A stretch of 36,568 nucleotides of DNA from a virus. How positions within the stretch are numbered: the stretch's first letter is position 1; each line of letters starts with the position of its first letter. Below the pieces are notes generated by a model that saw nothing but the letters and a program-made list of their open reading frames with translations, did not search any database and was not told where the DNA came from. The stretch covers positions 1-36,568 of IMG/VR virus record IMGVR_UViG_3300042879_003010; one strand, given 5' to 3'. The position numbers and the translations under genes are program-made. Shown piece by piece: positions 28,752 to 30,962 of the stretch.

Positions 28752-29222
28752 TCATGCTGCCGCCTTCGTGTCGGTGCCCTTCGCCCGGTGCTTGTCGCAC
28801 CAGGGGAACGCGCAGCCCGTGGCGATCGGCTCGCCGCAATAGAGATGCGTGGCGCGCGCGCGGTGGTCCCAGAGCGGCCAGAGGCAGCCGCCGCGGCGGA
28901 TGTCGCGCGGCAGAGGCGCGGGCAACGCCTTGGGCGGCGGCGGGGCCTTCAACGGCCGCGGTCCTTTCACCACCCGAGGCGCGGCCACCCGTGCCGGCGG
29001 GGCCTTGGCGCGGGACTTGCGCGGCTTCGGCGGCTCGCCCTCCGCCAAGCGCCGGATGGGCGACAGGCGAGCGGCGAGCTTGAGCCGCCGCGCGCGGCCG
29101 ATGACGCTGTTCTTCGTGCAGCGCAGCGACACGCCGATCGCGGATGTCGACACGCCGGCGTCCCACATCGTGCGGAGCAGCTCGTCGCGATCAGCCGTCC
29201 AGGGGACCTCACCGCGGCTCAC
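28752..29222 (-). CDS. gcrA: GcrA-family transcription regulator
   Basis: 156 residues from GTG 29222, overlapping the preceding stop as GTGA; the longer frame upstream is shadow sequence. The N-terminal HTH is diagnostic: WTADRDELLRTMWDAGVSTS (8-27), then CTKNSVIGRARRLKL (35-49). A Pro/Lys/Arg-rich linker (about 60-105) follows, then the sigma-factor-binding-like C-terminal domain (GGCLWPLWDHRARATHLYCG, ending PWCDKH). Known GcrA binds sigma-70 holoenzyme and promoters bearing CcrM-methylated GANTC. A phage copy could redirect host RNA polymerase to phage promoters, possibly those at 23887-23936. Confidence 0.85.
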   Translation of the reverse strand: MSRGEVPWTADRDELLRTMWDAGVSTSAIGVSLRCTKNSVIGRARRLKLAARLSPIRRLAEGEPPKPRKSRAKAPPARVAAPRVVKGPRPLKAPPPPKALPAPLPRDIRRGGCLWPLWDHRARATHLYCGEPIATGCAFPWCDKHRAKGTDTKAAA

Positions 29223-29536
29223 GAGCGATCCACCGTGCGATGGCCCGGAGCATCCTGGCGCGTGTTCTGAGCAGCGCGATCCGCGCGCAGAGCATCCAGA
29301 CGCGCGGCGAGCGCGCCGGCCATGGCGTCGTCGCGGGCTGCCATCTTGAGGAGGGTTTCGGCGAGTGGCCGGCCGCGTCCGCGGAGCCAGTTGCGCGCGG
29401 TTTCGAGGGGCACGTCGGCGGCGCGAGCGGCGCGCTTGGCGGCGTGTGCGGGCCATGCAGCGCGGAGGAGCGTGGGCACGTCCTGCCCTATCTCTCCGCT
29501 GGCGTGCGGCGTCGGCGGGGGCCAGATTGCGACCAT
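29219..29536 (-). CDS. HTH-like early regulator
   Basis: 105 residues from ATG 29536, 4 bp after the Cro-like stop. The core AAKRAARAADVPLETARNWL (about residues 34-53) reads as a helix-turn-helix. It is followed by RGRGRPLAETLLKMAARDDA and a helical tail, then a polar C-terminus. Second gene of the leftward early operon, it has the position and size of a CII-type or secondary phage regulator, though no such homology is shown. The stop overlaps the GcrA start. Confidence 0.65.
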   Translation of the reverse strand: MVAIWPPPTPHASGEIGQDVPTLLRAAWPAHAAKRAARAADVPLETARNWLRGRGRPLAETLLKMAARDDAMAGALAARLDALRADRAAQNTRQDAPGHRTVDRS

Positions 29537-29540
29537 GACG

Positions 29541-29744
29541 CTACGACGCCCTCTCGAACGCCTTGGCCAGGTCCGGCCGCAGCACCCCGGCATCGATGCC
29601 GGTCGCGCGGGCCACTGCTTCCACCCGGTCTGCGGGGACGCGGTTCGCCGCCCATCGAAGGACGGTCGAATGCTTGACGCACAAGGCTCGCGCCAAGTCG
29701 GAGGCGCTCCCTCGGCGTTGCTTGAGATGATCGGCTAGGGTCAT
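29541..29744 (-). CDS. Cro/YdaS-type repressor
   Basis: 67 residues from ATG 29744. SASDLARALCVKHSTVLRWA (12-31) is an XRE-type helix-turn-helix. NRVPADRVEAVARATGI and LRPDLAKAF match the Cro/YdaS pattern in which 'RV--IE-ATG---LRPD' follows the recognition helix. It is the first gene of the leftward replication operon and lies divergently from the repressor. The start lies about 7 bp from the predicted -10, so the mRNA may have almost no leader, and no ribosome site is seen. It would bind the same TGTGCA-type operators and shut off the opposing repressor. Confidence 0.8.
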   Translation of the reverse strand: MTLADHLKQRRGSASDLARALCVKHSTVLRWAANRVPADRVEAVARATGIDAGVLRPDLAKAFERAS

Positions 29745-29751
29745 GGCGGGC

Positions 29752-29780
29752 ACTGTGCAACCACTGCACACTGTGGTCAA
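29752..29780 (-). promoter_or_regulatory. Left early promoter with overlapping operator
   Basis: On the leftward strand, TTGACC (29775-29780) and CACAGT (29752-29757) are spaced by 17 bp as -35 and -10. The palindrome TGTGCA-ACCAC-TGCACA (29754-29770) fills the spacer, so bound repressor would exclude polymerase. The architecture closely copies that of the right promoter. Confidence 0.65.
29754..29770. promoter_or_regulatory. Operator O1 (TGTGCA-N5-TGCACA)
   Basis: A perfect 6-bp inverted repeat with a 5-bp centre lying between -35 and -10 of the left promoter. The same half-site is found at three other places in the switch region. Confidence 0.75.
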
Positions 29781-29787
29781 GCGGAAA

Positions 29788-29804
29788 TGTGCAGTCATTG
29801 CAAC
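29788..29804. promoter_or_regulatory. Operator O2 (imperfect)
   Basis: TGTGCA-GTCAT-TGCAAC; the first four bases of the second arm match. It sits 7 bp upstream of the left promoter -35, and contains TTGCAA (29798-29803), a possible -35 for the repressor gene. Confidence 0.65.
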
Positions 29805-29838
29805 GACGCGGACAGACGCGGCGTGGCAGTCTCACCGT

Positions 29839-30165
29839 ATGAGCAAGGCACACCCGATACGCGAACACCTGGGCGCATGGCGCAGGCACTTCGGATGGTC
29901 TCTCACAAAGCTTGCGAACGAAATAGGAACGTCGCATTCTACCTGCCAACGACAGGAAGCAGGGAAGATTGGCGTGGACGAGACGACTTTTGCAGCAATC
30001 GCCAAGGCTTACGGGATTTCCGTGGCCGAGTTGTCGGCGTCTCTGGCCGATGCGGACCGGGCGCGCGAGCTTGGTCGGCTGCTCGACGTGGCGCGTCGGC
30101 TGGATGCGAAGGGGCTGCGGACCCTAGCGGACCTGTCGGAGCAGTTCGCCCCTCGAAAGGGCTAG
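29839..30165 (+). CDS. Short XRE-family repressor (CI-like, no peptidase domain)
   Basis: 108 residues from ATG 29839. The N-terminal HTH (LGAWRRHFGWSLTKLANEIG, then TSHSTCQRQEAGKIGVD, then FAAIAKAYGISVAEL) is a clear XRE fold at residues 10-65. The C-terminal 40 residues are helical (RELGRLLDVARRLDAKGLRT), probably for dimerisation. There is no S24/LexA-type domain, so RecA-driven self-cleavage is not expected and induction must work differently. The gene has no ribosome site of its own. It faces away from the Cro-like gene and lies between the two operator pairs. Confidence 0.8.
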   Translation: MSKAHPIREHLGAWRRHFGWSLTKLANEIGTSHSTCQRQEAGKIGVDETTFAAIAKAYGISVAELSASLADADRARELGRLLDVARRLDAKGLRTLADLSEQFAPRKG

Positions 30166-30176
30166 CCTGAAAAAAA

Positions 30177-30193
30177 AGTGCATCCACTGCACA
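30177..30193. promoter_or_regulatory. Operator O3
   Basis: AGTGCA-TCCAC-TGCACA, one base different from the consensus half-site. It lies 7 bp upstream of the right promoter -35, exactly as O2 does at the left promoter. Confidence 0.7.
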
Positions 30194-30200
30194 AATAGGC

Positions 30201-30230
30201 TTGACCCGTTCTGTGCATCGGTTGCACATT
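30201..30230 (+). promoter_or_regulatory. Right early promoter with operator O4
   Basis: TTGACC (30201-30206) and CACATT (30225-30230), 18 bp apart, form a plausible promoter for the rightward operon. The perfect palindrome TGTGCA-TCGGT-TGCACA (30212-30228) overlaps the spacer and -10. A strong ribosome site (AAGGAGGG) then precedes ATG 30256. Confidence 0.7.
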
Positions 30231-30255
30231 CCCTCCTGCCACCAAGGAGGGACCA

Positions 30256-30528
30256 ATGGCAGACATCGAACCCCAAGACCCCGCGCCGACCGAGCGCCCG
30301 CTGCCGTTCACGCTGCCCCAGCCGGACGCGCCGGCCGAGGCTGCCGCGCCGTTCGCCTGCATCGCGGCGACCGACGGTCGCGTGATCCGGATCGACGTGT
30401 CGGCTGGCGGCCGGCTGGTCGAGCTCACGATCGAGGGTCGCCGCCCCGTGATCCTCGACCACTACCAGACCGCGGCGATGCAGGCCGCGCTCGACGACAT
30501 CCTGTCCGGCTGCACGAGGCGGCCATGA
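30256..30528 (+). CDS. First gene of the right operon, hypothetical
   Basis: 90 residues with an ideal ribosome site (AAGGAGGG). The N-terminus is proline-rich and acidic (MADIEPQDPAPTERPLPFTL), followed by a compact beta-type domain (RVIRIDVSAGGRLVELTIEG) and a helix (DHYQTAAMQAALDDILSGC). No family recognised. As the first gene behind the repressed promoter it should be strongly expressed early, typical of host-takeover or anti-restriction proteins; that is position-based inference. Confidence 0.65.
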   Translation: MADIEPQDPAPTERPLPFTLPQPDAPAEAAAPFACIAATDGRVIRIDVSAGGRLVELTIEGRRPVILDHYQTAAMQAALDDILSGCTRRP

Positions 30529-30962
30529 CCGACAACATCACCATCAAGCGTTGGGACACGGAGGCCGTCATTTACGACGGCCCTCGTAACGGGCTGGCGG
30601 GGCGCAACCTGATCCACGCCCGACTGGACGGCGCTGACCTGCGCGGCGTGGACCTGACCAGCGCTCAGCTGATCCTGGCACACATGTCCGACGCCGACCT
30701 GAGCGGCGCCAAGCTGCGGGACGCCGTCATGATTCACGCCGTCATGGTCAGCACCGTGTTGCGGGACGCGGACCTGTCCGGAGCCTTCCTGATCGAGGCC
30801 AGCATGATGGGCGCCGATCTCCGCGGCGCCAAGCTGATCCGCGCCGATCTTCGCAGCGCTAACCTAGTCGACGCCGATCTCACCGGTGCCGACCTCAGCC
30901 GCACGCGTATGGATGGCGCCAACTTGCGCGGCGCGATTCTGCCGGAGGGGGGCAAGCCATGA
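30525..30962 (+). CDS. Pentapeptide-repeat protein
   Basis: 145 residues from ATG 30525, overlapping the previous stop as ATGA. From about residue 30 to 138 it consists of about twenty A(D/N/K)LxX pentapeptides (for example GADLRGVDLTSAQL, DADLSGAFL, GADLRGAKLIRADL), which form a right-handed quadrilateral beta-helix. The first 30 residues (KRWDTEAVIYDGP) are a short cap found in several phage members. Such proteins can mimic DNA and inhibit gyrase or bind other enzymes. Its early position suggests a role against the host, but this is unproven. Confidence 0.85.
   Translation: MTDNITIKRWDTEAVIYDGPRNGLAGRNLIHARLDGADLRGVDLTSAQLILAHMSDADLSGAKLRDAVMIHAVMVSTVLRDADLSGAFLIEASMMGADLRGAKLIRADLRSANLVDADLTGADLSRTRMDGANLRGAILPEGGKP

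Follow-up and report, generated by a model that had tools for sequence, protein, structure and literature searches.

Judged by its gene order and its operator-promoter units, the immunity region described here is a lambda-type switch in mirror image, and over its rightward early promoter lies an RNA hairpin that would silence transcripts reading through from the repressor gene and be freed in transcripts that start at the promoter itself, a combined reading to which we assign a probability of roughly 0.62. The window, i.e. the whole stretch of DNA analysed, is the 36,568-base virus contig of IMG/VR record IMGVR_UViG_3300042879_003010, and the features of its switch are collected in Table 1. 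A prophage must transcribe its repressor gene and yet silence its early genes. In the window and several relatives an early operon directly follows the repressor gene in its reading direction, so that repression at the DNA level may not suffice by itself. A hairpin sorting read-through from promoter-started RNA would account for the avoidance of such a leak. The switch itself is of a known kind; the leader hairpin, which is conserved and widespread, was absent from the original prediction made for this region.

Table 1. Positions of the switch features and neighbouring genes in the window (left-unit operators and -35 given in the direction of reading).
Feature	Position	Strand	Details
Cro-like HTH protein, 67 aa	29541..29744	-	YdaS 2.5e-8, P22_Cro 3.3e-4
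Predicted left -10, CACAGT	29752..29757	-	17 bp from TTGACC; register matches 100 independent sites (among the matches listed)
Left operator O2, TGTGCAGTGGTTGCACA	29770-29754	-	4 bp after TTGACC; overlaps -10
Left (PR-like) -35, TTGACC	29780-29775	-	7 bp after O1
Left operator O1, GTTGCAATGACTGCACA	29804-29788	-	degenerate, 2 mismatches to half-sites
Repressor, 108 aa	29839..30165	+	HTH_3 4.5e-9; HTH only
Right operator O1, AGTGCATCCACTGCACA	30177-30193	+	11 nt past repressor stop codon
Right (PL-like) -35, TTGACC	30201-30206	+	7 bp after O1
Right operator O2, TGTGCATCGGTTGCACA	30212-30228	+	5 bp after TTGACC; overlaps -10
Predicted right -10, CACATT	30225..30230	+	from spacing and the unconstrained A25/A27/T29 signal in 100 sites (among the matches listed)
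Predicted PL transcription start	about 30236-30238	+	
Hairpin	30230-30252	+	5' arm TCCCTCCT 30230-30237, N7 loop, 3' arm AGGAGGGA 30245-30252
Shine-Dalgarno GGAGGG of first right gene	30246-30251	+	inside hairpin 3' arm
First gene of right operon, 90 aa	30256..30528	+	no Pfam/PHROGs family at E 0.1
GcrA-like cell-cycle regulator	28752-29456	-	early left operon; PF07750, 1.1e-12
Pentapeptide-repeat protein	30525-30962	+	second gene of right operon; 2.4e-43

Leftward from 29744 the window encodes the Cro-like helix-turn-helix (HTH) protein, a weakly HTH-like protein, a GcrA-like protein, a helicase and an endonuclease-like protein, followed by primase/helicase, terminase and portal. Rightward from 30256 lie the 90-aa protein, a pentapeptide-repeat protein, more small ORFs, a Gp157/Mu-Gam-like protein and RecT. 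The repressor gene sits between both operator-promoter units, divergent from the Cro-like gene and pointing into the right unit. No tyrosine integrase (PF00589) was found in the window, and as the contig is possibly incomplete, it is from the switch that we infer a temperate life. No S24 cleavage domain was found in the 108-aa product of the 327-bp repressor gene. A blastn comparison of 28755-30530 to named phages gave no match.

Two units of the form O1, 7 bp, TTGACC, 4 or 5 bp, O2 surround the short repressor gene exactly as originally predicted, and their core pattern (TTGACC-N4/5-TGTGCA-N5-TGCACA), found twice in the window, appeared in none of 100 shuffles. When up to two mismatches are allowed, the palindrome TGTGCA-N5-TGCACA occurs five times in the window (1.06 expected; five reached in one of 100 shuffles), and four of the five matches fall in the two units. 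The two inner palindromes, said to differ at only two of 17 bases, do so; these are the two O2s, each being the more distant of its pair from the repressor gene. By spacing, O2 does overlap the -10, with CACATT and CACAGT lying 17-18 bp from TTGACC, but both -10s are weak, and a generic sigma-70 scan of 29700-30300 found no promoter. The left-side O1 carries two to five mismatches across the PR units compared. The arrangement as a whole supports the idea of one repressor, encoded between two outward-reading units with operators overlapping their promoters, that would control both.

It had also been proposed that this is not the lambda layout, a view that the comparison contradicts. In lambda the repressor gene is flanked by operator-promoters, with cro and the replication genes on one side and the recombination genes on the PL side, and a terminator lies between the repressor gene and PL. 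As in lambda, the repressor gene of the window lies between two operator-promoter regions, diverges from the Cro-like gene and is aimed at the second promoter, PL; the replication genes (helicase and primase/helicase, leftward) are on the cro side and the recombination genes (Gam-like and RecT, rightward) on the other, giving a mirrored lambda map, and the same two-operator version is found in phage 16-3. The window differs from lambda in having two operators per side instead of three, in a repressor without an S24 domain (the self-cleaving type was not found), in the lack of a detected terminator between repressor and PL, in a cro predicted to be leaderless and in the hairpin over the PL start. 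A plus-strand terminator between the repressor gene and PL was searched for and none was found, the sole terminator-like match in 29700-30300 being on the minus strand at O1. Here, at 30178-30192, O1 and the preceding A-run form a terminator-like stem plus eight T, which could stop leftward antisense RNA; 0.6 such matches are expected.

A search for relatives with paired divergent units had been suggested, and such relatives exist. The pattern TTGAC-N5..7-TGTGCA-N5-TGCACA occurs in 47 IMG/VR stretches, of which 30 have an O1/-35/O2 unit by set criteria (both units of L030 fall outside these) and seven have two exact divergent units. A second IMG/VR scan returned 42 stretches, 28 already in the first set. 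Among species genomes an O1-containing pattern matched 11 stretches, ten with alphaproteobacterial titles, including Sphingomonas, Gluconobacter, Nitrobacter and Brevundimonas, and one in a Rhodoferax bin with no unit by the unit criteria. Exact patterns are rare in the species genomes sampled, recovering only the centre genome G001 among 385 and among 289 genomes, and none in the 119 genomes of G003's family. Repressor/cro-type HTH genes were found by an iterated profile near the unit in 52 of 73 records (window included), as a divergent pair in 40. The repressor used as an IMG/VR query gave 58 pattern matches, none of them confirmed; a repressor similarity search gave eight genomes, G001 being already known and seven being new. 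By eye, six of the seven show a PL-like unit and then an inverted repeat, L083 being without it, and in L078 the Shine-Dalgarno lies outside the first inverted repeat after the PL-like unit. In two genomes of Gluconobacter's family the repressors are 51-52% identical to that of the window, the layout is the same and the operators are slightly different. Four relatives with long intervals (L008, L010, L014 and L029) are nearer to lambda, with three cro-side operators (start-to-start spacings of 33 and 26-35) against two at the opposite unit; L010, with TGTGCA operators and three on the cro side, has an S24 repressor (7.1e-12). L023 and L126 lie on one IMG/VR contig, and L075 and L210 on contig C6 of G001; these are the loci of two hairpin promoters with different operators about 8.5 kb apart on one Gluconobacter contig, which suggests two switches or two joined elements.

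That the unit looks copied was not borne out by the 18 phages with both units, where only O2 is more alike within than between phages. The likeness of its central N5 is 0.578 within a phage and 0.383 between phages (P 0.0002), and the O2 half-sites are also more alike within phages (P 0.016), while O1 and both spacers are no more alike within than between these 18 phages (P 0.26, 0.45 and 0.51). Since both operators would share one binding specificity, the O2 likeness is accounted for without a recent duplication. Downstream the two sides are unlike: one looks leaderless and the other has a hairpin leader.

On the cro side, with bases numbered from the first T of TTGACC, the A of the window's ATG is at 37. 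Of 20 distinct PR units, 19 begin this ATG at base 36-38, 14 of them at 37. Counting a second L043 unit, which resembles a PR unit but has no ATG near base 37, the number of leaderless units becomes 19 of 21. The position tracks the -35 and not the operator, base 37 being kept as the gap from -35 to O2 varies from 3 to 5. As the ATG thus sits where transcription should start, the cro mRNA is predicted to begin at its AUG and to be leaderless.

On the PL side, the window's hairpin begins directly after the right O2, its anti-Shine-Dalgarno 5' arm lying almost wholly upstream of the predicted +1, and it reaches -14.6 kcal/mol (z -3.17; equalled in 3 of 200 shuffles). In relatives the first gene's Shine-Dalgarno is likewise usually within the 3' arm of a hairpin starting right after O2. 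To compare arms, the first 13 bases after O2 were paired with the next 52 bases, either their own or swapped between phages. Across 44 distinct PL units own arms gave -12.6 and swapped arms -9.14 kcal/mol (z -9.9; 0 of 10,000 permutations), and the same test on 20 PR units showed no such pairing (z -1.0). The test left out the weak, hairpin-less PL unit of L065, the unclassified L002 and the second L043 unit; L039, L042, L063 and the plus-strand unit of L069 were assigned to PL by eye. Phages that share the TGTGCA operator thus have many different arm sequences, each of which pairs with itself. A known RNA family was not recognized, as no Rfam match was found at E up to 1 in 29700-30300. In L035 and L080 a T-run follows the PL hairpin, which might there terminate read-through RNA instead of, or besides, hiding the ribosome site.

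In 41 TGTGCA-type units (the 44 PL units minus three without a start codon), removing the 5' arm raised the mean computed exposure of the Shine-Dalgarno from 0.22 to 0.45, with a rise in 34 and none in seven, so that the freeing is only partial on average; another phage's arm put in its place gave 0.31. In L031 the computed Shine-Dalgarno is already unpaired in read-through RNA (0.95). For the window, computed exposure of GGAGGG is 0.0 in read-through RNA, 0.52-0.69 for starts at base 35-37 and 0.40 for a start at base 38.

The hairpin is also found at promoters without the TGTGCA operator. An operator-free pattern, TTGAC-N26-CTCCATC-loop-GATGGAG, was scanned in IMG/VR and occurs in at least 120 stretches, compared with eight when the gap is changed by -4 and six when it is changed by +8. 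One of the six +8 matches holds a second TTGAC in the right register. Of the eight -4 matches, three, including a near-identical pair, combine a start codon with an ORF, and genuine variants may be among them. The at least 120 stretches, 118 of them new and two seen before, gave 100 distinct sites among the matches listed, to which the following counts refer. A start codon and ORF are present in 92 sites, 82 of these also having a -10 base (A25 or T29), and a start codon lies 5-9 nt after GGAG in 92; some of the remaining sites are probably chance matches. A TGTGCA-type O2 is present in only four of the 100 listed sites. The 32 bases before TTGAC share a word of at least six bases with the N26 in 86 of 99 listed sites (23.9 expected from cross-pairs), and the N26 holds an inverted repeat with arms of at least five in 57 of 100 (13.1 in shuffles), which indicates that O1/-35/O2 is a general plan in which the operator itself varies. 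Of the 100 listed sites, 68 have an upstream repressor-like HTH gene oriented toward them and two have only an HTH gene in the opposite orientation; in the other 30 no such gene was found, 15 of these having fewer than 800 bases upstream. Host information comes from the titled genomes and the named phages, and where hosts are known they are mainly alphaproteobacteria.

A -10 emerges unasked from the 100 listed sites at a spacing of 17 bp (A25 0.69, A27 0.47, T29 0.70), and with a 17-bp spacer and a +1 seven bases past the -10, the start falls at base 36, right after CTCC. Covariation in the outer stem is clearest between base 31 and the base after the Shine-Dalgarno (SD+1; 45 sites against 24.4 expected, z 5.0), is smaller at base 30 (z 2.2) and base 28 (z 2.4), and was not seen at base 29 (z 1.4), base 27 (z -0.9) or five inner positions in these listed sites. 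A compensatory scan showed no rescue: an A-C mismatch is found in 14 stretches and the restored G-C pair (CTCCGTC/GACGGAG) in 13, against at least 120 with A-T; a start codon, ORF and -10 base are present in nine of the 14 and six of the 13, respectively. This suggests that pairing alone does not decide that position and that sequence constraints act on the start-point bases as well, plausibly through a preference for A as the initiating base.

These observations can be joined as follows. The 108-aa repressor would bind two operators at each of the two promoters and thereby shut both the leftward PR-like operon (cro-like and replication genes) and the rightward PL-like operon (small genes, Gam-like protein and RecT). 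The repressor gene is aimed into the PL operon and ends 11 nt ahead of O1, no terminator having been found in between, so its transcripts should enter the early genes. Such read-through RNA would hold both arms and hide the Shine-Dalgarno, while RNA started at PL would begin at about the end of the anti-Shine-Dalgarno arm, lack most of it, and so have a free ribosome site and be translated. The hairpin over the PL start would in this manner render read-through harmless; PR would differ in that its mRNA starts at the cro AUG. The predicted +1 falls on base 36 for the generic set and, for the window, whose gap from -35 to O2 is one base longer, on about base 36-38, placing the CTCC arm at about -4 to -1; this prediction may be off by one or two bases, and the last arm base of the window may be transcribed. 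In 97 sites among the matches listed (100 minus three), the computed GGAG exposure steps from 0.00-0.02 for 5' ends at or before base 32 to about 0.37 at or after base 34, and since these sites were picked for the hairpin only the dependence on the 5' end is informative. This step implies that the hairpin can tell read-through from the repressor gene apart from PL-started RNA. In many relatives, including some of S24 type, the repressor gene ends hundreds of bases away, and a terminator could serve there.

An alternative is that PL starts upstream of the 5' arm and that the hairpin, then 5'-terminal, acts in the operon's own mRNA, as a regulated switch of the ribosome site, by stabilizing the RNA or as a put-like antitermination signal of the kind known from HK022. 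The strength and conservation of the hairpin would agree with this, as would the long inner stems left in the PL mRNA of several relatives (e.g. L014, L042 and 16-3). However, promoter geometry places the predicted +1 at about base 36-37, the same place as the cro AUG in the sister units, PR units have no such pairing, and an upstream start would leave the operon's own transcript with a buried Shine-Dalgarno (exposure about 0.01), so that we regard a role in that mRNA as rather unlikely. We consider it improbable that the inverted repeat serves another regulator as a DNA site, or reflects an initiation preference of the polymerase, with incidental pairing. The gap between at least 120 matches to CTCCATC/GATGGAG and 13 to its paired variant does tell that sequence matters besides pairing, but the TGTGCA-operator phages vary their arms and still self-pair (z -9.9), the outer flanks of the generic set covary (base 31 with SD+1, among the matches listed), and the 3' arm holds a Shine-Dalgarno at the proper distance from a start codon in nearly all listed sites. 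An ordinary two-operator lambda-type switch in which the leader hairpin has no role would need nothing beyond parts already known, and operators and promoters of these kinds are annotated in 16-3; matches at the correct register are nevertheless enriched at least 15-20 fold, which together with the own-arm pairing shows that the hairpin is maintained and makes this explanation very improbable.

Sorting of read-through from promoter-started RNA by a hairpin over the promoter, as preferred here, has precedents, IS10 being one case of the same logic. For T4 gene e, the ribosome site is reported to be hidden only on the longer, upstream-initiated RNA, which gives about 100-fold less lysozyme (PMC3014915), and the I-TevI leader is reported to follow the same hairpin logic (PMC2988022); in both, RNA from a promoter lying within the 5' arm is unable to fold the hairpin. 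In T4, a lytic phage, the device distinguishes the early from the late period, whereas the hairpin of the window would separate prophage (repressor) transcripts from early ones in temperate phages, at an operator-controlled TTGAC-type promoter. In the literature searched, mostly outside subscription journals, no description was found of such a hairpin in temperate-phage immunity regions, nor of read-through logic used to part prophage from early transcripts.

Two named phages carry the hairpin at PL. The immC record of phage 16-3 (DQ500118) annotates OL1 / -35 PL / OL2 and OR1 / -35 PR / OR2 around the repressor gene c, the same operator / -35 / operator order on both sides as in the window, and the c stop codon is 15 nt from OL1 (11 nt to O1 in the window). 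In its PL the annotated -10, TATAAC, is 17 bp from the -35; TCTCCTC occupies bases 30-36, base 37 is A, and GAGGAGA precedes the following ATG. The annotated features that the record shows do not include a hairpin. Unlike the window, 16-3 has its own operator (ACAATTGATTGT at OL2), a c gene of 792 bp against 327, and a first annotated PR-side ATG at base 49 from TTGACG, i.e. not leaderless as annotated. C is described as the only regulator known to act on both PL and PR (PMC3694467). Acetobacter phage phiAP1 (LC644972) resembles the window in its divergent XRE pair, its O1 / TTGACC / O2, its CTCCATCAC...GTGGTGGAG leader directly before an annotated gene and an annotated cro start at base 36; it differs in its operator, TTCGCA-N3-TGCGAA. 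It is presented as an active temperate phage in a survey of mitomycin-inducible phages (PMC8566455), the main text of which mentions neither "operator" nor "hairpin". A divergent HTH pair is also present in Rhizobium phage RHph_I1_23, where the 761 bases examined showed no such unit.

On balance we lean, by a small measure, towards regarding this promoter-embedded translational lock as a general part of temperate-phage immunity regions, observed here mainly where the known hosts are alphaproteobacteria. If so, whatever the repressor and operator, an anti-Shine-Dalgarno arm at about -4 to -1 of the promoter at which the repressor gene is aimed would limit early proteins to promoter-started RNA and act as a second layer of prophage silencing, independent of the repressor. 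Phages 16-3 and phiAP1 make this testable in culture, and the element could serve as a small portable leader for leak-free expression. The constant register of the hairpin next to varying operators may also aid in finding immunity regions whose operators are unknown.

Two further observations concern the neighbouring genes. The pentapeptide-repeat protein in the right operon is possibly a DNA mimic, and the GcrA-like regulator in the early left operon may link phage genes to the methylation-dependent transcription of the host.
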